Shown here: positions 22,058-62,554 of the stretch, piece after piece
Layout: each line of letters starts with the position of its first letter
Numbering within the stretch: position 1 is the stretch's first letter
NCBI RefSeq assembly: GCF_000422685.1
Contig: NZ_KE383904.1
Coordinates: 196,257-260,256 of the forward strand
Direction: 5' to 3'
Length of the DNA: 64,000 nucleotides
DNA from: Flavobacterium gelidilacus DSM 15343
GTDB lineage: Bacteria; Bacteroidota; Bacteroidia; Flavobacteriales; Flavobacteriaceae
Program-made: the position numbers and the translations under genes
Notes under the pieces: generated by a model
Databases searched by the model: none
What the model saw: the letters and a program-made list of their open reading frames with translations, nothing else
What the model was told of the DNA's origin: nothing

Positions 22058-22765
22058 TTATTTTTTTAAAATGGTATTTAGCACTAAATCTTTGTCTAAT
22101 TTTTTGGTACAGAAGAACCAATCTTTACAATCTAAGTTTTCAGTATCTTCCATTCTGTCTTGAGCCACTCCACAAGAACCAGCTGTTGGAACTATTACTT
22201 CGTCACCTGGTTGCCAATCTGCTGGACAAGCAACTTGAAACGCATCAGCAGTCTGTAAAGCAAGTAAGGCTCTATATATTTCTTGAAAGTTTCTACCAAT
22301 ACTTAAAGGATAATATAAAATAGTTCTAATTATTCCTTTTGGATCTACAAAGAAAACCGCTCTAACTGCTTGTGTACTACTTTCACCAGGTTGAATCATA
22401 CCATATTTATTAGATACTTTCATAGAAATATCTTCAATTAAAGGAAATTTCACTTCTATGTTTTTCATTCCTTTATATTCAATTTTTTCTTTAATGGTTC
22501 TTAACCATGCAATGTGACTATATAATCCATCGATTGATAATCCTAATAATTCACAATTTGCATCATTAAATTGTTGTTCCATATTAGCAAATGTCATAAA
22601 CTCAGATGTACAAACAGGTGTAAAATCAGCTGGATGACTAAAGAAAATTACCCATTTTCCTTCATAATCTTTAGGGAAATTAATTGGTCCTTGTGTACTT
22701 ACAGCTGTAAATTCTGGAGCTTTATCTCCAATTCTCGGCATTACGTTTATTACTTGATCTTCCAT
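22058..22765 (-). CDS. Peroxiredoxin, Prx6/archaeal thioredoxin-peroxidase type
   Basis: Reduces hydrogen peroxide and organic peroxides. 235 residues, longer than AhpC. The peroxidatic Cys52 sits in HPADFTPVCTSEF, and two further Cys in NLDCKDWFFCTKK near 217-223 (C-x5-C) match the extra C-terminal cysteines of archaeal-type Prx6 enzymes. The Arg and Trp of the WLRTI and WQPGDEV segments are present. It is monocistronic; a possible minus-strand -7 box GAAATTTG is at 22806-22799. Cytoplasmic. Confidence 0.93.
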   Translation of the reverse strand: MEDQVINVMPRIGDKAPEFTAVSTQGPINFPKDYEGKWVIFFSHPADFTPVCTSEFMTFANMEQQFNDANCELLGLSIDGLYSHIAWLRTIKEKIEYKGMKNIEVKFPLIEDISMKVSNKYGMIQPGESSTQAVRAVFFVDPKGIIRTILYYPLSIGRNFQEIYRALLALQTADAFQVACPADWQPGDEVIVPTAGSCGVAQDRMEDTENLDCKDWFFCTKKLDKDLVLNTILKK

Positions 22766-27380: not shown

Positions 27381-27424
27381 CAAAATTAATACTTGATTTA
27401 TAAAATCAATATGATTGTAATCAT
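27381..27424 (-). promoter_or_regulatory. Crp/Fnr-type site and -7 box for the copper-uptake genes
   Basis: ATGA-N6-TCAT at 27411-27424 (perfect arms) has its centre 29.5 bp from the first base of a perfect minus-strand TAATTTTG box (27388-27381). The promoter fires leftward into copy 1 of the small HPP protein, the YtkA-like lipoprotein and receptor 1. Confidence 0.7.
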
Positions 27425-27544: not shown

Positions 27545-27588
27545 ATGATTTGAGTCATAAAGCAAATGTTAAATAAATCAGAAATTTG
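27545..27588 (+). promoter_or_regulatory. Crp/Fnr-type site and -7 box for the nos operon
   Basis: ATGA-N6-TCAT at 27545-27558 (perfect arms) has its centre 29.5 bp upstream of GAAATTTG at 27581-27588. The box keeps TTTG but has GA for TA, as expected of an activator-dependent promoter. It drives the cytochrome c gene and nosZ. Confidence 0.7.
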
Positions 27589-34415: not shown

Positions 34416-34459
34416 ATGATTTAAAGCATAAAAATTTATTTGTTTTATCAATAATTTTG
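34416..34459 (+). promoter_or_regulatory. Crp/Fnr-type site and -7 box for ric
   Basis: ATGA-N6-GCAT at 34416-34429 (one arm imperfect) has its centre 29.5 bp upstream of TAATTTTG at 34452-34459. Confidence 0.6.
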
Positions 34460-35755: not shown

Positions 35756-35799
35756 CAAATAGACTATTTATTTTTAATTAATTATATGACATTAGTCAT
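35756..35799 (-). promoter_or_regulatory. Crp/Fnr-type site and -7 box for osmC-like gene
   Basis: ATGA-N6-TCAT at 35786-35799 (perfect arms; ATGAC/GTCAT is also symmetrical) has its centre 29.5 bp from the minus-strand box TCTATTTG (35763-35756), with TTTG in exact register. Confidence 0.6.
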
Positions 35800-36481: not shown

Positions 36482-36525
36482 CAAAGTACCATCATAACCA
36501 CAATTTATTTTATGAGTCAAATCAT
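36482..36525 (-). promoter_or_regulatory. Crp/Fnr-type site and -7 box for fasciclin gene
   Basis: ATGA-N6-TCAT at 36512-36525 (perfect arms) has its centre 29.5 bp from GTACTTTG (36489-36482, minus), with TTTG in register. Confidence 0.6.
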
Positions 36526-38346: not shown

Positions 38347-38368
38347 AACACACCTAATTTGTACTATA

Positions 38369-38412
38369 CAAAAATGCTAATTATCAGGGAATTAAAATAT
38401 GATAATTGTCAT
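38369..38412 (-). promoter_or_regulatory. Crp/Fnr-type site and -7 box for the crp/fnr gene (autoregulation)
   Basis: ATGA-N6-TCAT at 38399-38412 (perfect arms) has its centre 29.5 bp from GCATTTTG (38376-38369, minus). A degenerate ATGC-N6-TCAG site overlaps at 38374-38387, a possible repression site. Confidence 0.6.
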
Positions 38413-38416
38413 ATTT

Positions 38417-38460
38417 GTAACAATCGTTACAATTAAAAAGTAATGAAGTATGTAAATTTG
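38417..38460 (+). promoter_or_regulatory. GTAAC-N4-GTTAC site and -7 box for the DUF3365 cytochrome operon
   Basis: GTAAC-AATC-GTTAC at 38417-38430 is a perfect palindrome, extended by T/A on the flanks. Its centre is 29.5 bp upstream of TAAATTTG at 38453-38460. The start codon follows at 38477. Confidence 0.7.
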
Positions 38461-38476
38461 CTTTAAATACTATCTT

Positions 38477-39460
38477 ATGAAAAACCTGCTTTTACTTTTA
38501 CTTTCAGTTTTCCTTTTTTCTTGCAATGAAAAGAAGGAAAAGTATAAACCAATTCAAAACGAAACGGCTCAATTAGACACCATTGAACACAACGGTAAAA
38601 AACTAATGGAAACGCATTGTTATTTGTGCCATAGTCCAAGTGCTAAAGAAAATGAAGGTAGAATTGCTCCACCAATGATTGCGATAAAAGCGAGATATTT
38701 AATGGATTATGATTCAAAAGAAGATTTCATAAAAGCTATTTCTAATTTTGTGGAAAATCCAACAGAAGATAATACTAAAATGCACGGTGCTGTTAAAAAA
38801 TTTGGGGTAATGCCCAAACAAGTTTTCCCTGAAAATACAGTAGCTCAAATTGCCGATTTTATGTTTGATTATCAAATTGAAGAACCAAATTGGTTCAAAG
38901 AACATTGGCAAGGACACGGAAATGATGATTGGACACAACCAGGAAAAAAAGTAATTGTAGTTGAAAAACAAAAAACCTATGAAGAAATCGGATTGGAATA
39001 TGCGCTTTCAACCAAAAAATTGTTAGGTCAAAACTTAATGGGAGCGATTCAAAAGAAAGGAACATTAGAAGCCTTAGCTTTTTGTAATATTCAGGCTATG
39101 CCATTAACGGATAGTATGTCTGTCAAATATAATGCAACTATTAAAAGAGTTTCCGACAAAAATAGAAATCCAAATAATAAAGCAAATGCTGAAGAATTAG
39201 TTTATATAGAACAATTTAAAAAAGATTTAGTAGCTAAAAGAGAACCAAAACCGGTTACCATTGATAAAGGAGATAAAGTACATTTTTATTATCCAATTCC
39301 AACCAACACAATGTGTTTGCAATGTCATGGAAAACCTGAAAATATTAAACCAGAAGTTGCTAAACAAATTTTAAAATTATATCCAAAAGATTTAGCCGTG
39401 GGTTATGGAGAAAATGAAGTTAGAGGAATTTGGAGTATCACTTTTGATAAGAAGAAATAA
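38477..39460 (+). CDS. Diheme cytochrome c lipoprotein with DUF3365 domain
   Basis: 327 residues, lipobox Cys16 (LFSC-NE). The N-terminal cytochrome c domain has Cys48-YL-Cys51-His52; the C-terminal DUF3365 (Tll0287-like) heme domain has Cys280-LQ-Cys283-His284, followed by YPKDLAVGYGENEVRGIWSITF. DUF3365 domains bind heme for sensing or electron transfer in the periplasm. It is the first gene of an operon with a rhodanese gene whose start overlaps its last base, a DUF6132 protein and two methyltransferases. Confidence 0.9.
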   Translation: MKNLLLLLLSVFLFSCNEKKEKYKPIQNETAQLDTIEHNGKKLMETHCYLCHSPSAKENEGRIAPPMIAIKARYLMDYDSKEDFIKAISNFVENPTEDNTKMHGAVKKFGVMPKQVFPENTVAQIADFMFDYQIEEPNWFKEHWQGHGNDDWTQPGKKVIVVEKQKTYEEIGLEYALSTKKLLGQNLMGAIQKKGTLEALAFCNIQAMPLTDSMSVKYNATIKRVSDKNRNPNNKANAEELVYIEQFKKDLVAKREPKPVTIDKGDKVHFYYPIPTNTMCLQCHGKPENIKPEVAKQILKLYPKDLAVGYGENEVRGIWSITFDKKK

Positions 39461-39837
39461 TGGAAACTATAAAAATAAAAGAAGTTTGCCCAACAAGCAC
39501 TTTAGAATTAATAAAACGTAATTATCTTTTGTTAGATGTTCGTGAAGAAAATGAATTCAATCAATTTTCATTTGATGTGCCTCGAGTTTTGAATATTCCA
39601 ATGAGTCAGTTGACTGAAAGAATGAACGAAATTCCTAAAGATGAAAAAGTTATTTTGGCTTGTTTAACTGGCGAAAGAAGTCTAAGAGCAGTTCAATTTT
39701 TAAATGAATATGGTTTTACCAATTTATTGAATATGAAAAAAGGTCTTTCAAAATGGGCTCAAAAAGAATATCCAATTAAAGGAGAATCAATTGTTCAAGA
39801 AAAATTATGTTGTGGGGAACATTCAAATTGTAAGTAA
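39460..39837 (+). CDS. Rhodanese-domain protein with Cys-rich tail
   Basis: 125 residues. One rhodanese domain has LLDVREENEF (24-33) and the active loop with Cys68 (LACLTGERSLRA), so it can carry persulfide sulfur. After the domain comes a short tail with KLCCGEHSNC, three extra Cys and a His, that could bind metal. No signal peptide, so cytoplasmic. The ATG overlaps the preceding stop by one base and DUF6132 follows 2 bp later. Confidence 0.92.
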   Translation: METIKIKEVCPTSTLELIKRNYLLLDVREENEFNQFSFDVPRVLNIPMSQLTERMNEIPKDEKVILACLTGERSLRAVQFLNEYGFTNLLNMKKGLSKWAQKEYPIKGESIVQEKLCCGEHSNCK

Positions 39838-54293: not shown

Positions 54294-54337
54294 GTAACGC
54301 TTGTTACTTAAAACCATGTTAAATATAGATAATTTTG
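54294..54337 (+). promoter_or_regulatory. GTAAC-N4-GTTAC site and -7 box for cydAB
   Basis: GTAAC-GCTT-GTTAC at 54294-54307 (perfect arms) has its centre 29.5 bp upstream of TAATTTTG at 54330-54337. cydA begins at 54361. Confidence 0.75.
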
Positions 54338-54360: not shown

Positions 54361-55707
54361 ATGGATGTTGAAATATTAGCAAGAATTCAGTTTGCTTTCA
54401 CAATTGCCTTTCATTATATCTATCCACCTTTAAGTATTGGTATTGGTTTAATTATGGTTATTATGGAAGGTTTGTATCTAAAAACTGGAAATAAAGAATA
54501 TGAAGTTTTAACTCGTTTTTGGTTAAAAATTTTCGCAATAACTTTTGGAATAGGTGTTGCAACAGGAATTATTATGGAATTTGAATTTGGAACCAACTGG
54601 GCCGTTTATTCAAAATATGTTGGGGACATTTTTGGAAGTGCATTAGCAGCTGAAGGTTTATTTGCTTTCGGATTAGAAAGTACTTTTTTAGGAATTTTAA
54701 TTTTTGGATGGAATAGGGTTTCACCTAAAGTTCACTTTATTTCAACAATAGGAGTGTTTTTAGGCTCAATGTTTTCTGCGGTTTGGATAGTTGTAGCAAA
54801 TAGTTGGCAACAAACACCAGCAGGTTATCATATTGTTGGAGAGGGATTAAATGCTCGTGCAGAAGTAACAGATTTTTGGGCTATGGTTTTTAATCCGTCA
54901 AGTGTAGATAGAATTATTCATGTTTGGCAAGGAGCTTTTTTAGCAGGTGCCTTTTTAGTATTGAGTGTTCATGCATATTACATTAGAAAAGGAAGATACG
55001 TTGAATTGTCTAAAAGAGCTTTTAAAATTGCTTTAGTCGTAGCTACAGTAGTTTCGTTCACTCAATTGCTTTCAGGTCATAGTTCTGCAGATGGAGTTGC
55101 TGTAAATCAACCTGCAAAATTAGCTGCAATGGAAGGTCATTATGAAAAGTCAGCTCCAGCTGATTTATATCTTTTGGGATGGGTGGATAATAAAAATCAA
55201 AAGGTAACTGGTTTAGGATTGCCTGGAGGATTATCATTTTTAGTTCATCAAGACTTTCAAGCACCAATTACAGGTTTAAATGCATTTCCTGAAGAAGATA
55301 GACCTGGACAAGTTAATGCCGTTTTTCAGTTTTATCATATTATGATTTCTATTGGAATGTTTTTAATAGCAATTACTTTTTATGCTAGTTTTTTATGGTG
55401 GAGAGGCAAATTATTTGAAAAAAAATGGTTGATGTGGATATTTTCATTTTCGGTTATTTTACCACAAATAGCCAATCAAGCAGGATGGTTTGCGGCTGAA
55501 ATGGGAAGGCAACCCTGGATTGTTTATGGACATTTACGAACAAGTCAAGGATTTTCTCAAGAAGTTTCAGCAAATCAAATAGTGTTTTCATTAGTCATGT
55601 TTACAGTTGTTTATAGTTTATTGTTGATTTTATTTTTATATTCTTTAAATAAAAAAATAAAACATGGTCCTTATGATGAAGCTGTAAATCCTTTAGAAAT
55701 TATTTAA
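54361..55707 (+). CDS. cydA: Cytochrome bd ubiquinol/menaquinol oxidase subunit I
   Basis: High-affinity terminal oxidase, resistant to NO and sulfide. 448 residues with nine helices. His18 (AFHYIYPPLSIG) is the predicted heme b595 ligand region; the GRQPWIVYGHLRTSQ block near 382-396 is the CydA signature and the second and third heme ligands lie in SVHAYY and the WFAAEMGRQPW stretch. It lacks the long insertion of E. coli-type CydA, so it is the short Q-loop form. cydB follows 10 bp later. Confidence 0.96.
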   Translation: MDVEILARIQFAFTIAFHYIYPPLSIGIGLIMVIMEGLYLKTGNKEYEVLTRFWLKIFAITFGIGVATGIIMEFEFGTNWAVYSKYVGDIFGSALAAEGLFAFGLESTFLGILIFGWNRVSPKVHFISTIGVFLGSMFSAVWIVVANSWQQTPAGYHIVGEGLNARAEVTDFWAMVFNPSSVDRIIHVWQGAFLAGAFLVLSVHAYYIRKGRYVELSKRAFKIALVVATVVSFTQLLSGHSSADGVAVNQPAKLAAMEGHYEKSAPADLYLLGWVDNKNQKVTGLGLPGGLSFLVHQDFQAPITGLNAFPEEDRPGQVNAVFQFYHIMISIGMFLIAITFYASFLWWRGKLFEKKWLMWIFSFSVILPQIANQAGWFAAEMGRQPWIVYGHLRTSQGFSQEVSANQIVFSLVMFTVVYSLLLILFLYSLNKKIKHGPYDEAVNPLEII

Positions 55708-55717
55708 ATAAAAAAAT

Positions 55718-56755
55718 ATGGAAACATTTTTAGGTATAGATTATCCCACACTTTGGTTTTTAGTAGTTGGATTGTTATTTTCAGGATATGCAATTTTAGA
55801 AGGTTTTGATTATGGTGCTGGAGCTTGGCATTTATTTTTTAAAAAAGATATTAGTAGAAGAATCGCCATAAACGCTATTGGTCCAATTTGGGATGCCAAT
55901 CAAGTTTGGTTAATTATTGGTGGTGGAGCTTTGTTTGCAGGATTTCCGGTAATGTATGCTACGATGTTATCTTCGATGTATGTTCCTTTTATGTTGTTTT
56001 TAATGTTTTTGGTACTTCGTTCTACATCCATAAAATTTAGAAGTGCAGAAGAAATGCTTTGGTGGAGAAAAATGTGGGATATTACCTATTTTGTATCTAA
56101 TGTATCCATTGCTTTTTTATTAGGAGTTGTTTTAGGAAATGTGCTACAAGGTTTCGAAATTGGTCCAAACTTCAGTTATCAAGGTGGTGTTTTCTTTTCA
56201 TTTTTAAGTCCTTATGCAATCATGACAGGATTTACGACATTATCGATTTTTATGACACAAGGAGCTATTTTCTTGTTATTAAAAACAGAAGGAAGATTAC
56301 ATGCTAGATTAACATTCTTATTAAAAAAAGGAATGATTTTTTTTATTGTAAGTTTTTCAATTACATCTTTATATACTTTAATCTTTACTCCAGGTGTAAC
56401 AGATAATTTTAAAGAAACACCAGCATTTTTCATATTACCTTTATTATCATTTTTAGCAGTTGCAAATGTGCCTAGATTAGTATCTAAGAAAAAATATGGA
56501 CAAGCATTAATATTTTCATCCTTAACGATGGCTTTTTTATTGATGTTAGTTGCTTTTCAATTATATCCTGTTTTATTGCCCTCAACAATACATCCAGAAC
56601 ATAGTGTAACTATATATAACGCTGCATCTTCTCAAAAATCTTTAGGAATCATGCTTACAATAGTAGTAATTGGAACTCCTTTATTAGCAGGTTATTTCAT
56701 ATTTCTCTACAGAACATTTTACGGTAAAGTTAAACTAGATGATACTAGTTATTAA
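55718..56755 (+). CDS. cydB: Cytochrome bd oxidase subunit II
   Basis: 345 residues with eight or nine helices, including LEGFDYGAGAWHLFF and GPIWDANQVWLIIGGGALFAGFP, the conserved CydB N-terminal half. It pairs with CydA in the inner membrane. No cydX or cydCD is adjacent; the operon ends at a T-tract terminator that recurs verbatim after the next gene. Confidence 0.96.
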   Translation: METFLGIDYPTLWFLVVGLLFSGYAILEGFDYGAGAWHLFFKKDISRRIAINAIGPIWDANQVWLIIGGGALFAGFPVMYATMLSSMYVPFMLFLMFLVLRSTSIKFRSAEEMLWWRKMWDITYFVSNVSIAFLLGVVLGNVLQGFEIGPNFSYQGGVFFSFLSPYAIMTGFTTLSIFMTQGAIFLLLKTEGRLHARLTFLLKKGMIFFIVSFSITSLYTLIFTPGVTDNFKETPAFFILPLLSFLAVANVPRLVSKKKYGQALIFSSLTMAFLLMLVAFQLYPVLLPSTIHPEHSVTIYNAASSQKSLGIMLTIVVIGTPLLAGYFIFLYRTFYGKVKLDDTSY

Positions 56756-57595: not shown

Positions 57596-57639
57596 CTGAT
57601 AATTATCATATTTTTAAGATTGTAAATTGCTTAAATTTG
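57596..57639 (+). promoter_or_regulatory. Crp/Fnr-type site and -7 box for the DUF6799 gene
   Basis: CTGA-N6-TCAT at 57596-57609 (left arm imperfect) has its centre 29.5 bp upstream of TAAATTTG at 57632-57639. Confidence 0.55.
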
Positions 57640-57667: not shown

Positions 57668-58372
57668 ATGAAAAAAATTTTATGGTTATTCGCATTAGTA
57701 GTTTTAAGTACTACTTCGTTAATTGCACAAGATCAAATTAAAGATCAAGATAGAGACAAGGATCAAGACCAGGACCGAGATAGAGTACATCTTATGTTAG
57801 TTGATGGTGATGTTCTACAAATTAGAGATCGTGATCAATTAAGATTAAAAGATAAACTAACATTAAGTGATGGTACTTTGGTAGAAACGGATGGTACTTA
57901 TCAAAAAAGAGATGGAGAAAAATTGCGTTTACGTAATGACGAATGTATAGATATGGATGGAAATGTTTATACCAATGAATATCAGTATAGACAAAGAATG
58001 CAACAAGAAAATAAGAATTTGAACGAAAATCAAATTAGAGAAAGAAATCAAAATCGTTATCAATTAACTCTTATAGATGGAGAGTTATATCAAATTAGAA
58101 CACAAGATCAAACACGTTTGCAAAAACAACTTAGTCTTGGTGATGGTACAGTAGTTAATCCTGATGGTACTTACCAAAATAAAAATCAAAAACAAATGCG
58201 TCTTAAAGAAGGTGAGTGTTTGAATATGGATGGTGAAATGCATAAAAACATGAACCAACAAAGAAAAATGCTTGTCCAAAAAAACAGTAAGGCAAATAAA
58301 AAAATTATAAAAAATAAAACACAAAAAAAACCAACCGTTAAAAAAATGACAAAGGCTAAAAAAGGAAATTGA
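57668..58372 (+). CDS. DUF6799 protein, duplicated domain
   Basis: 234 residues with a signal peptide (1-20, ending IAQ). An Asp/Gln/Arg-rich linker (DQDRDKDQDQDRDRD) leads into two DUF6799 copies: residues about 39-107 (MLVDGDVLQIRDRDQLRLKDKL...DGTLVETDGTYQKRD...CIDMDGNVY) and 137-200 (TLIDGELYQIRTQDQTRLQKQL...DGTVVNPDGTYQNKN...CLNMDGEMH). The tail is Lys-rich. Each copy has one conserved Cys. Secreted or periplasmic, function unknown. Confidence 0.85.
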   Translation: MKKILWLFALVVLSTTSLIAQDQIKDQDRDKDQDQDRDRVHLMLVDGDVLQIRDRDQLRLKDKLTLSDGTLVETDGTYQKRDGEKLRLRNDECIDMDGNVYTNEYQYRQRMQQENKNLNENQIRERNQNRYQLTLIDGELYQIRTQDQTRLQKQLSLGDGTVVNPDGTYQNKNQKQMRLKEGECLNMDGEMHKNMNQQRKMLVQKNSKANKKIIKNKTQKKPTVKKMTKAKKGN

Positions 58373-59378: not shown

Positions 59379-59422
59379 GTAACAAATGTAGCAGTAGGAA
59401 GATAAGTAATAAACTAATTTTG
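59379..59422 (+). promoter_or_regulatory. GTAAC-type site and -7 box for the SQR-like gene
   Basis: GTAAC-AAAT-GTAGC (59379-59392) has its centre 29.5 bp upstream of TAATTTTG at 59415-59422. The T-run and GTAACAAATGT core match the DUF2202 promoter module at 56781-56804. Confidence 0.65.
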
Positions 59423-59441: not shown

Positions 59442-60902
59442 ATGTCAAAAATAGTAATATTAGGTGCAGGAATATCTGGTCATACAGCTGCTGCACATTT
59501 AAGAAGAAAATTAGGTAAAGAACACGAAGTTCTTGTAGTTTCTCCTAATCGAAATTACCAATGGGTTCCTTCCAATATTTGGGTGGGAATTGGTAGAATG
59601 AAAGCTGAACAATTAATCTTTCCTTTAGAACCTTTATACAAAAGAAAAGGAATTGGTTACAAACAAGCCAAAGTAGTTTCTTTTCATCCTGAAGGAAATA
59701 AAACAGAAGATAAACCATATGTTGCGGTTGAATATGTTTTTGGAGAAAAAAAAGGTACACAAGAAAATGTAACCTATGATTATCTAATCAACGCAACTGG
59801 ACCAAAATTAGCTTTCGATATGACGGAAGGTTTAAATCCAGGAACTAATAAAGCCTTTTCTGTTTGTACTTATGATCACGCAGAACACGCTTGGCATGGT
59901 TTAAAAGATTTAATTGATCAACTAAAAAAATCAGATAAAAAAGCTAAAATTCTTATCGGAACTGGTCACGCTAAAGCAACTTGTCAAGGTGCAGCATTTG
60001 AATATATATTAAATGTAGAAAAAGAGTTAGTCAGACATGGTGTTAGAGATAAAGTAGATGTTACATGGATTTCCAATGAAAATGACTTAGGTGATTTTGG
60101 AATGGATGGTATGTTAATGGATTACAATGGTTTCAATATGAAATCCAAAGACATGATCGAAATGATTTTTGAAGACAGAGGTATCAAATGGATTTTAGGT
60201 GCTGGTGTCAATAAAATTGAAGATGGAATTGCTCATTATGAAAATTTAGAAGGAGAATACAAATCAGAAACTTATGATTTTGCCATGTTAATACCAGCTT
60301 TTTCTGGACACGGATTTAAAGCGTACGATAAAAATGATGCAGATATCACAGATAAATTATTCAAAGGATTTATGATAGTGGATGCCGATTATACTCCAAG
60401 ACCTTACGAAGAATGGACCGTTCAAGATTGGCCAGAAACCTATCAAAATCCATCTTATAAAAATATTTTTGCACCTGGAATTGCTTTTGCACCACCTCAT
60501 GCTATTTCAAGACCTCGTAAGAGTAAAAATGGAACAGATATTTCTCCAGCACCACCAAGAACAGGAATGCCTTCTGGAATTACAGCAAGATTAGTTGCTG
60601 ATAACATAATTGATTCAATCAAATCTGGTAAAGAATCATTACACCACAAAGGTTCTATGGGAAATATGGGTGCTGCTTGTATAGCTTCAGCTGGTTTTGG
60701 AATGACAAAAGGAAGTGGTGTAAGTATAACAACTTTTCCAATTGTTCCAGATTATAAAAAATACCCAGAAACAGGAGGAAGAGATATAAACAAAACGTTT
60801 GGAGATATTGGTTTAGCTGGACATTGGGTAAAATTATCTTTACACTATGCGTTCATATACAAAGCAAAAATGCTTCCTTTTTGGTGGTTAATTCCTGAAT
60901 AG
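59442..60902 (+). CDS. Sulfide:quinone oxidoreductase-like FAD protein
   Basis: 486 residues. FAD-binding GAGISGHTAAAHLRRKL (8-24), second dinucleotide motif KILIGTGHAKATCQGAAFEY (169-188) and Cys142 (SVCTYDH), Cys181 (ATCQGA) and Cys413 (GAACIASAGFG) fit the redox cysteines of SQR-type flavoproteins that oxidise sulfide into the quinone pool. The C-terminal MLPFWWLIPE tail is amphipathic, suited to membrane attachment. A GTAAC dyad controls it, as for cydAB, whose oxidase resists sulfide. Polysulfide-linked functions also remain possible. Confidence 0.85.
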   Translation: MSKIVILGAGISGHTAAAHLRRKLGKEHEVLVVSPNRNYQWVPSNIWVGIGRMKAEQLIFPLEPLYKRKGIGYKQAKVVSFHPEGNKTEDKPYVAVEYVFGEKKGTQENVTYDYLINATGPKLAFDMTEGLNPGTNKAFSVCTYDHAEHAWHGLKDLIDQLKKSDKKAKILIGTGHAKATCQGAAFEYILNVEKELVRHGVRDKVDVTWISNENDLGDFGMDGMLMDYNGFNMKSKDMIEMIFEDRGIKWILGAGVNKIEDGIAHYENLEGEYKSETYDFAMLIPAFSGHGFKAYDKNDADITDKLFKGFMIVDADYTPRPYEEWTVQDWPETYQNPSYKNIFAPGIAFAPPHAISRPRKSKNGTDISPAPPRTGMPSGITARLVADNIIDSIKSGKESLHHKGSMGNMGAACIASAGFGMTKGSGVSITTFPIVPDYKKYPETGGRDINKTFGDIGLAGHWVKLSLHYAFIYKAKMLPFWWLIPE

Positions 60903-61176: not shown

Positions 61177-61220
61177 GTAACTCTTGTTACAGACTACGCT
61201 TTAATCTTGAACTACTTTTG
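61177..61220 (+). promoter_or_regulatory. GTAAC-N4-GTTAC site and -7 box for the RND efflux operon
   Basis: GTAAC-TCTT-GTTAC at 61177-61190 (perfect, flanked by T and A) has its centre 29.5 bp upstream of TACTTTTG at 61213-61220. tolC follows at 61241. Confidence 0.75.
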
Positions 61221-61240: not shown

Positions 61241-62554
61241 ATGAAGAATAAATTAGTACTCACTTTAATTGGAATTTTTACCTTAGCTTTTAATGCTTCA
61301 GGTCAAGATACCATTGCTATTTCTAAAAAAGAAATTTTAGAAAAAGTAAACGATAATAATTTGCAAATCAAAATTGCAGAAAAAAATGCAGCTTCAGCAA
61401 AAGCAGATTATAATCAATCGAATTCTTTGTTTTTACCAAGTATTTCGGCTTCACACACTGCAATTTCTACAACAAATCCTTTAATGGCTTTTGGTTCTAA
61501 ATTGAATCAGGAAATTTTAACAGCCTCCGATTTTAATCCAGCCTTATTGAATAATCCAAACAAAACGCAAAACTTTGCCACTAAAATTGAAGTGTTACAA
61601 CCTTTAATTAATGTAGATGGTTTTTACGGAAGACAAGCTGCTAAATCAAAATACGAAGCTTTTCAACTGCAAACCGAAAGAACGAAAGAATATTTACAAC
61701 TCGAAGTAAATAAGTCGTTTATGCAATTACAATTAGCTTATAAAGCGGTTGCCGTTTTAGAAAAGGCAAACATAACTGGACAAGCAAATCTTAAATTAGT
61801 AGAGAATTACGCTAAACAAGGTATGCTTCAAAAAACGGATTTACTTTCTGTTCAAGTTCGTGTAAATGAAATCAAAAATCAATTGCAATATGCTAAATCT
61901 AATGTTCAAAATGCTTCGGATTATTTAGCTTTTTTACTAAATGAAGATAATACAAACAAAGTTTTCAAACCAACTGAAGATATTGAAAAAGTTATAGAAA
62001 TTTCATCATTTGACCCAAAATTGATTTCCAACAGAAAAGACATTTTAGCTATGGATAAGTCGGTAGAAGCTTACGGACAAATGACACAAATGAATAAAAT
62101 GGGTTTCTTACCAAGACTAAACGCTTTTGGAAGTTATGAATTATATGATACCAAAGTTTTTCAAACTGGTGCAAAAGGATATACAGTTGGAGCTCAATTA
62201 TCTTGGAGTGTTTTTGATGGATACAAAACTATCGGAAAATATCAAAAAGCAAAAGCAGATTATGACAAAGCTCAAACCGAAAGTCAACAATACAAAGCAC
62301 AAAGTCAGTTGGAATTAAATAAAACCAATCGTCAATTAGTAGATGCTGAAAACAAAGTAAATCTTTCAAAATTAGCTTTAGAGCAATCACAAGAAGCTTA
62401 TAGAATTAGAGAAAATCGTTTCAAAGAAGGTTTAGAAAAAACAACCGATTTATTAAATTCAGAAACCTTACAATTCCAAAAAGAATTAGAATACTTACAA
62501 GCCGTTTTTGAATATAATTTCACCCAAAAATATTTAGAATTTTTAACCAAATAA
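61241..62554 (+). CDS. TolC-family outer membrane protein of the RND operon
   Basis: 437 residues from the ATG at 61241 with a signal peptide (1-22, ending SGQ). TolC-type helical repeats include NLQIKIAEKNAASAKADYNQSNSLFLPSISASHTAIST and the second-repeat LAMDKSVEAYGQMTQMNKMGFLPRLNAFGSYELY. It forms the channel for the RND pump encoded next. The GTAAC dyad upstream places this pump in the anaerobic/NO-type regulon. Confidence 0.92.
   Translation: MKNKLVLTLIGIFTLAFNASGQDTIAISKKEILEKVNDNNLQIKIAEKNAASAKADYNQSNSLFLPSISASHTAISTTNPLMAFGSKLNQEILTASDFNPALLNNPNKTQNFATKIEVLQPLINVDGFYGRQAAKSKYEAFQLQTERTKEYLQLEVNKSFMQLQLAYKAVAVLEKANITGQANLKLVENYAKQGMLQKTDLLSVQVRVNEIKNQLQYAKSNVQNASDYLAFLLNEDNTNKVFKPTEDIEKVIEISSFDPKLISNRKDILAMDKSVEAYGQMTQMNKMGFLPRLNAFGSYELYDTKVFQTGAKGYTVGAQLSWSVFDGYKTIGKYQKAKADYDKAQTESQQYKAQSQLELNKTNRQLVDAENKVNLSKLALEQSQEAYRIRENRFKEGLEKTTDLLNSETLQFQKELEYLQAVFEYNFTQKYLEFLTK

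Follow-up and report, generated by a model that had tools for sequence, protein, structure and literature searches.

The 130-bp intergenic region 38347-38476 of Flavobacterium gelidilacus DSM 15343 separates the gene of a local Crp/Fnr regulator (minus strand) from a cytochrome gene (plus strand) and contains one ATGA-N6-TCAT and one GTAAC-N4-GTTAC dyad (Table 1). We consider it likely that the region forms a back-to-back promoter with one activator site in each direction, and that the two sites are read by different Crp/Fnr proteins: an FNR-type regulator that would head a cascade, and a sulfur-type regulator that would recognize GTAAC. This reading draws on the dyads themselves, their register with the two promoters, their separate conservation and their co-occurrence with two types of regulator. 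Positions refer to the analysed window, a contiguous stretch of 64,000 nucleotides. Besides the cytochrome and rhodanese genes, the window holds the nos cluster, in which NosZ is Sec-dependent, genes for the iron-sulfur repair protein RIC, OsmC and a fasciclin-domain protein, and further cydAB, a DUF2202 gene, a flavoprotein gene and a TolC-type gene. The flavoprotein matches the sulfide:quinone reductase (SQR) model weakly, far below the model cut-off.

Table 1 Positions of the dyads, promoter boxes, genes and regulators discussed in the text.
Feature	Position	Strand	Remarks
Local Crp/Fnr regulator, 198 aa	37750-38346	-	helix GLRVETVIR; V180 E181 I184 R185 (CRP numbering)
Cytochrome c with Tll0287-like domain	38477-39460	+	relatives in L072, L078, L079 and L106 also with GTAAC and box
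Rhodanese	39460-39837	+	second gene of the putative GTAAC-driven operon; overlaps cytochrome stop
ATGA-N6-TCAT dyad ATGATAATTGTCAT	38399-38412	-	minus-strand reading ATGACAATTATCAT; FNR-type core; putative class II activator site of the regulator promoter
GTAAC-N4-GTTAC dyad GTAACAATCGTTAC	38417-38430	+	putative class II activator site of the cytochrome-rhodanese operon
-7 box CATTTTTG, regulator promoter	38376-38369	-	one mismatch to TAnnTTTG; 36 nt from ATGA dyad start
-7 box TAAATTTG, cytochrome operon promoter	38453-38460	+	36 nt from GTAAC dyad start
Degenerate ATGC-N6-TCAG	38374-38387		judged chance from shuffling and lack of a counterpart in three relatives
ATGA dyad before the cytochrome gene preceding nosZ	27545-27558	+	non-FNR core; box GAAATTTG (one mismatch)
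ATGA dyad divergent from nos	27411-27424	-	non-FNR core; box TAATTTTG
ATGA dyad (one mismatch), RIC iron-sulfur repair gene	34416-34429	+	weakly non-FNR core; box TAATTTTG
ATGA dyad, OsmC gene	35786-35799	-	FNR-type core; box TCTATTTG (one mismatch)
ATGA dyad, fasciclin-domain gene	36512-36525	-	non-FNR core; two-mismatch box GTACTTTG at 36 nt
GTAAC dyad, cydAB (cytochrome bd, 54361-56755)	54294-54307	+	box TAATTTTG at 54330-54337
GTAAC-like dyad (two mismatches), flavoprotein gene 59442-60902	59379-59392	+	box TAATTTTG
GTAAC dyad, TolC-type outer-membrane efflux gene (61241-62554)	61177-61190	+	box TACTTTTG at 61213-61220
FNR-type protein	C3:285.8 kb		T180 E181 I184 R185
Three-cysteine Crp/Fnr protein	C1:103.5 kb		R180 V181 S184 R185; encoded beside sulfur-detoxification genes
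HcpR2-like Crp/Fnr protein	C10:64.4 kb (C10:64414-65082, L142)		R180 P181; helix GTSRPTLN

Two dyads in register with divergent promoters

The distance from dyad start to a TAnnTTTG-like box is exactly 36 nt for both dyads, leftward for ATGA and rightward for GTAAC, which bears out the proposal of the initial annotation that each is in register with one of the two promoters. Both dyads lie where that annotation had placed them, but the gap between them is 4 bp (38413-38416) instead of the 5 bp it gave; their centres are 18 bp apart. In class II CRP/FNR-dependent promoters, the dyad is centred at -41.5. For F. psychrophilum, the TAnnTTTG box has been located between -12 and -5 (PMC9723704), and -7/-33 promoter motifs are described in PMC2483708. 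Because of the 36-nt offset and the box register of F. psychrophilum, each dyad centre falls at -41.5 from predicted transcription starts at 38364 (minus strand) and 38465 (plus strand), so that by sequence register both dyads occupy the class II position. Relative to the opposite start, each sits at -59.5, near, yet not at, the usual class I position.

The ATGA-N6-TCAT dyad occurs 10 times in the window against 2.3 expected, a count that none of 100 shuffles reached, and GTAAC-N4-GTTAC with up to one mismatch occurs seven times against 1.0 expected (0 of 100 shuffles). Base shuffling of the 130-bp region (20,000 times) produced a perfect ATGA dyad in 0.5% of cases and a perfect GTAAC dyad in 0.01%, and never both together. 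Genome-wide, neither dyad is in excess when counted without the box (perfect GTAAC, 6 versus 5 for the reversed pattern; ATGA, 129 versus 120). With a box at 36 nt, perfect GTAAC dyads number three in this genome versus none for the control. The combination of dyad and box discriminates from the control; the dyad by itself does not. All three window GTAAC dyads counted as intergenic have at offset 36 a box that deviates at no more than one position, and four such matches occur at the six intergenic ATGA dyads, gene limits having been entered by hand.

That the GTAAC dyad is a functionless chance palindrome is hardly credible. The flat genome-wide count of perfect dyads would suit such an origin, but the count with box, the conservation of the dyad and the presence of GTAAC sites before other members of the cytochrome family all argue against it. 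For the two dyads together, chance is rejected on the excess in the window, the shuffles of the region and the box counts in 397 genomes. Weaker GTAAC matches are another matter: as the genome holds 18 dyads with box at up to two mismatches versus 6 in the control, two-mismatch sites are partly due to chance. Such a weak dyad with box also precedes the DUF2202 gene.

The initial annotation further described a degenerate ATGC-N6-TCAG dyad on the regulator's -7 box and suggested negative feedback. The letters are present, but the site does not rise above chance: it has two mismatches, and a site as close as this to the ATGA dyad (up to two mismatches) turns up in 75% of 5,000 shuffles. No counterpart occurs at the same place in three close relatives, which have two-mismatch sites only elsewhere. 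The chance level in shuffles and the absence in relatives rule out this dyad as a feedback operator. Negative feedback at the regulator promoter finds no footing either, since the ATGA dyad has an activator position and is of FNR type.

A different arrangement is seen among 66 homologues of the local regulator (63 matches in 61 genomes and three from the scan for relatives, distant ones included). An ATGA dyad lies within 35 nt before the start codon in 34 of the 66, at exactly -20 in 27; one homologue with a wrong reading frame (L049) is counted as lacking the dyad. In 17 of the 34, a -7 box is found at most 30 nt upstream, and 14 of these share the same 15-nt offset. Autorepression is plausible in those relatives that have the ATGA dyad near the start codon.

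Conservation was followed in three close relatives, whose regulators are 94% (L152, a MAG), 81% (L153, Flavobacterium jejuense) and 74% (L154, a Flavobacterium sp. MAG) identical to the local one; six distant relatives from the same scan were set aside. The ATGA dyad is kept in all four species, the window included. L154 and L152, which both retain the divergent cytochrome gene, have a GTAAC dyad, perfect in the former and with one mismatch in the latter. F. jejuense, with no cytochrome gene at the locus, lacks the GTAAC dyad but keeps the regulator and the ATGA dyad. In the three species with both dyads the 18-bp spacing is identical. Taken alone, the shared spacing is weak evidence for selection, because the genomes compared are close.

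Regulators co-occurring with GTAAC sites

Four proteins of the genome exceed the threshold of the Crp-type helix-turn-helix model, and a cNMP-binding domain is found in eight. Helix residues (Table 1) were read from sequence alignments with CAP, Vfr and FNR chains, and the helix of the HcpR2-like protein was assigned by eye. From its V-E-I-R residues, the helix of the local regulator would be expected to read TGA and not GTAAC.

Co-occurrence was surveyed in 397 Flavobacteriaceae genomes, with protein sets defined by E-value and not by tree, and with counts uncorrected for genome size and shared ancestry. Presence lists for the cross tables were entered by hand, and their sizes agree with the tallies. 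A perfect GTAAC dyad with box occurs in 273 of the 397 genomes, and the reversed control gave four matches in all (counted by hand). The three-cysteine type of regulator is present in 340 genomes (E<=1e-25). GTAAC with box is found in 270 of these 340 versus 3 of the 57 others (p=4e-28), and 70 of the 340 have the regulator without any perfect site. Of 30 loci of this regulator type, 27 carry perfect GTAAC dyads; the reversed control gave none. Exact boxes number 27 at offset 36 and at most two at any other offset. L075 is missing from a separate reading of the regulator loci. The three cysteines are invariant in 30 of 30 proteins of this type, which may sense thiols.

The initial annotation had offered two regulators or one protein with two site classes, and the survey favours the former: GTAAC with box tracks the unlinked three-cysteine protein, and the ATGA dyad is of FNR type. 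The local regulator has no association with GTAAC and box (45 of 61 genomes with it versus 228 of 336 without; p=0.45), and it is rejected as the GTAAC binder on these counts. That it alone uses both site classes is very improbable. The position of both dyads beside its gene is the one point in favour, and against it stand the lack of association, the V-E-I-R helix and F. jejuense, where regulator and ATGA dyad persist without the GTAAC dyad and the cytochrome gene.

We also regard it as improbable, though less so, that GTAAC is bound by the HcpR2-like protein, as in the published Bacteroides and Clostridium regulons. A correlation of P181 with GTAAC has been published (PMC1274295), and the protein has the helix GTSRPTLN. 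Its homologues do not track GTAAC with box, however, in the 199 genomes of this cross table (taken to be G000-G198): sites occur in 30 of 55 genomes with a homologue versus 96 of 144 without (p=0.14). Among genomes with the three-cysteine type the association is negative (p=0.002), and a GTAAC dyad was found in none of 10 loci of the HcpR2-like type. On the missing association and the empty loci, this candidate is rejected. Homologues of the HcpR2-like protein as such occur in 55 of the 199 genomes.

Sites associated with the three-cysteine regulator precede sulfur-detoxification genes. The 58 distinct genes that follow GTAAC and box in the loci examined were grouped by blastp clustering, with Pfam run on one representative of most groups. 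They comprise 18 TauE-type exporters, 15 TolC-type proteins, 11 lactamase/rhodanese proteins, five members of the cytochrome family (that of the window included), three SulP proteins, two peroxiredoxins and four singles; these counts are descriptive only, as the loci were picked by regulator or pattern. Cytochrome relatives 48-49% identical to that of the window have GTAAC and box in four loci (L072, L078, L079, L106), and in the first three the gene adjoins that of the three-cysteine regulator. Elsewhere in the F. gelidilacus genome, a GTAAC dyad with a one-mismatch box precedes a metallo-beta-lactamase/rhodanese gene, which we take to be persulfide-dioxygenase-like.

SulP-type sulfate permease genes directly follow GTAAC and box in other Flavobacteriaceae (L114, L116, L119). 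Peroxiredoxins 75-77% identical to that of the window (22058-22765) have GTAAC and box in L109 and L117; for the window's own copy, the window scan with up to one mismatch gave no GTAAC dyad.

FNR-type and operator-type cores of ATGA sites

The recognition helix of the FNR-type protein, GTATESCIRLL, aligns with GLTVETISRLL of solved FNR-type regulators, and E181 and R185 are present. The iron-sulfur cluster of FNR has four cysteine ligands. In the F. gelidilacus protein, C4, C7 and C106 align with FNR cysteines and the third FNR cysteine is unmatched; among ten homologues of this type, all have C53 and nine have C29. Because one FNR-aligned cysteine is missing, oxygen sensing by this protein is not secured.

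The ATGA dyad with box occurs in 309 of the 397 genomes, although matches to the local regulator (E<=1e-25) are limited to 61. Within the 203 genomes of the FNR-type cross table (taken to be G000-G202; E<=1e-40), 115 of the 121 that have the FNR type contain it, versus 45 of the 82 that lack the FNR type (p=5e-12). Presence is also linked to the local regulator (57 of its 61 genomes versus 252 of the other 336; p=0.0007), which leaves some role for that protein or for genome size. The mean number of sites per genome does not rise with it (3.4 with versus 4.0 without, in 203 genomes). Because 45 of the 82 genomes without the FNR type have sites and because of the link to the local regulator, ATGA sites may be read by another protein, the local regulator included.

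At ten FNR-type loci, the 36-nt offset to a box (one mismatch) holds for seven of eight ATGA dyads; offset 22 also recurs, six times. The FNR-type sites of the F. gelidilacus genome precede, among others, a presumably CcoI-like Cu-ATPase gene, whose product has metal-binding and E1-E2 ATPase domains, and a gene of the radical-SAM type judged HemN-like by eye.

The sequence between the half-sites distinguishes two groups of ATGA dyads. Class II sites in genomes without the local regulator have the core ATGAyAwwTrTCAT, and the operators of local-regulator homologues are mostly ATGATTnnAATCAT. A leave-one-out log-odds score of the core separates 126 of 135 FNR-type sites from 15 of 15 distinct homologue operators; the training set of 135 sites was drawn from among the matches listed, with 15 rows from the local-regulator genomes G027, G254 and G306 left out. 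The dyad in the regulator promoter is of FNR type in all four species, at +9.2 to +11.4 bits. The regulator-promoter dyad of homologue L229 is also of FNR type (+8.7), and that of L211 weakly so (+3.0). In the cluster of the window, the two nos dyads (-5.2 and -5.1) and the fasciclin dyad (-9.0) are of operator type and the RIC dyad is weakly so (-1.8); the OsmC dyad has an FNR-type core (+8.0) and is an exception to the cluster rule. The corresponding dyads of the relatives score -9.0 for fasciclin (2 of 2), +0.4 and -0.8 for OsmC, and +0.9 and +3.2 for a norC-like gene (assigned by eye). The core preferred by the local regulator appears to differ from the FNR core and fits three of the five nos-cluster dyads well; the separation of nos-cluster dyads from the FNR type by this rule is not clean.

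These scores bear on the proposal that the local regulator itself binds the ATGA dyad of its promoter, in positive autoregulation and with the FNR-type protein uninvolved, which we regard as unlikely. The two proteins have E181, I184 and R185 in common and may both read xTGA half-sites. Conservation of the dyad together with the regulator in four of four species, the ATGA dyads near the start codons of 34 of 66 homologues and the greater frequency of ATGA with box in genomes with the local regulator are also consistent with autoregulation. Against it, the core of the promoter dyad is of FNR type in every one of the four species, all 15 homologue operators score in the opposite sense, and the mean counts stay flat.

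The divergent pairing of ATGA and GTAAC dyads recurs; among the loci examined, the 18-bp spacing is found only in the window, L152 and L154. At C3:286509-286556 (L001, L171, L189), an FNR-type ATGA dyad faces the Cu-ATPase gene and a GTAAC-like dyad faces the fnr-type gene, with centres 34 bp apart. This GTAAC-like dyad has one mismatch, or two if the box is included; in the relative L137 the corresponding GTAAC dyad is perfect. In the divergent promoter of the HemN-like and thioredoxin genes at C3:296878-296976 (L167, L181), the ATGA dyad and a GTAAC dyad with one mismatch have centres 25 bp apart. L199, which lies out of register at a contig end, was left out of the reading of sites in this genome. 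Elsewhere in the window, the FNR-type dyad CTGATAATTATCAT (57596-57609), with box TAAATTTG at 36 nt, precedes a DUF6799 gene at 57668.

Proposed wiring and relation to known systems

In the reading with two Crp/Fnr proteins, an FNR-type oxygen regulator, probably the protein at C3:285.8 kb, would bind ATGACAATTATCAT at -41.5 and switch on the local regulator in the leftward direction. The local regulator would then activate the nos-cluster genes via a related dyad whose core differs (ATGATTnnnnTCAT type), and FNR-type protein, local regulator and nos-cluster genes would form a cascade working like Anr-Dnr. Rightward, the three-cysteine protein at C1:103.5 kb would bind GTAAC-N4-GTTAC at -41.5 and switch on a cytochrome-rhodanese operon. 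Binding, direction of effect, signals, the operon and mutual hindrance of the dimers are all predicted from sequence.

Dimers of the Crp/Fnr fold cover some 22 bp or more. At a spacing of 18 bp this suggests that neighbouring dimers would hinder each other, coupling the two promoters as a switch. It is a tentative and rather doubtful extension that the switch is of the either/or kind, with sulfide or persulfide, acting via the three-cysteine GTAAC regulator, turning the cytochrome-rhodanese genes on and the gene of the N2O-reductase regulator off, and low oxygen doing the reverse via FNR. Should the two dimers be mutually exclusive, a single 32-bp segment governing N2O reduction would receive both sulfur and oxygen signals. 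Such a switch, if true, implies that a GTAAC-binding Crp/Fnr protein governs a sulfur regulon throughout the family.

Our analysis assigns two dyad classes of the Flavobacteriaceae to two regulator types and provides, in the neighbourhood of a Sec-dependent N2O reductase, a candidate cascade from FNR to the nos regulator. It also suggests a sulfur regulon built on GTAAC, for which 273 of the 397 genomes sampled have one or more perfect sites, and we found no paper on such a regulon among those our searches listed. The literature was searched by titles and abstract openings, with few subscription journals covered; within this scope, none of the papers listed treats these sites or a sulfur Crp/Fnr regulon of Flavobacteria, and GTAACnnnnGTTAC was found only in PMC1274295.

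In Pseudomonas aeruginosa, denitrification genes are run by a second regulator whose own gene is under direct control of the FNR-type regulator Anr (PMC12403760). The same wiring is suggested here by the FNR-type core in the promoter of the local regulator in four of four species. In contrast to Anr-Dnr, the promoter is of the Bacteroidota type (TAnnTTTG), the half-sites are ATGA rather than TTGAT, and the divergent region is shared with a sulfur-type Crp/Fnr site. The arrangement also differs from a class II CRP/FNR-dependent promoter in that two stand back to back, with dyad centres 18 bp apart.

For the GTAAC site, the closest comparison is HcpR2. In Rodionov et al. 2005 (PMC1274295), R180 is tied to a G of the motif and the replacement of E181 by P to GTAAC; P181 is the consensus in HcpR2, with S and Q in three species. 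The dyad consensus GTAACnnnnGTTAC is identical, and the probable binder in F. gelidilacus likewise keeps R180 and has E181 replaced. However, this three-cysteine type has V181 and not P181, and the downstream genes in the loci examined are of the TauE, lactamase/rhodanese, SulP, peroxiredoxin, TolC, cytochrome and cydA types, with no hcp noticed among them. Wiring of the Anr-Dnr type and the GTAAC consensus of HcpR2 are already known, whereas the associated helix and the targets here differ.
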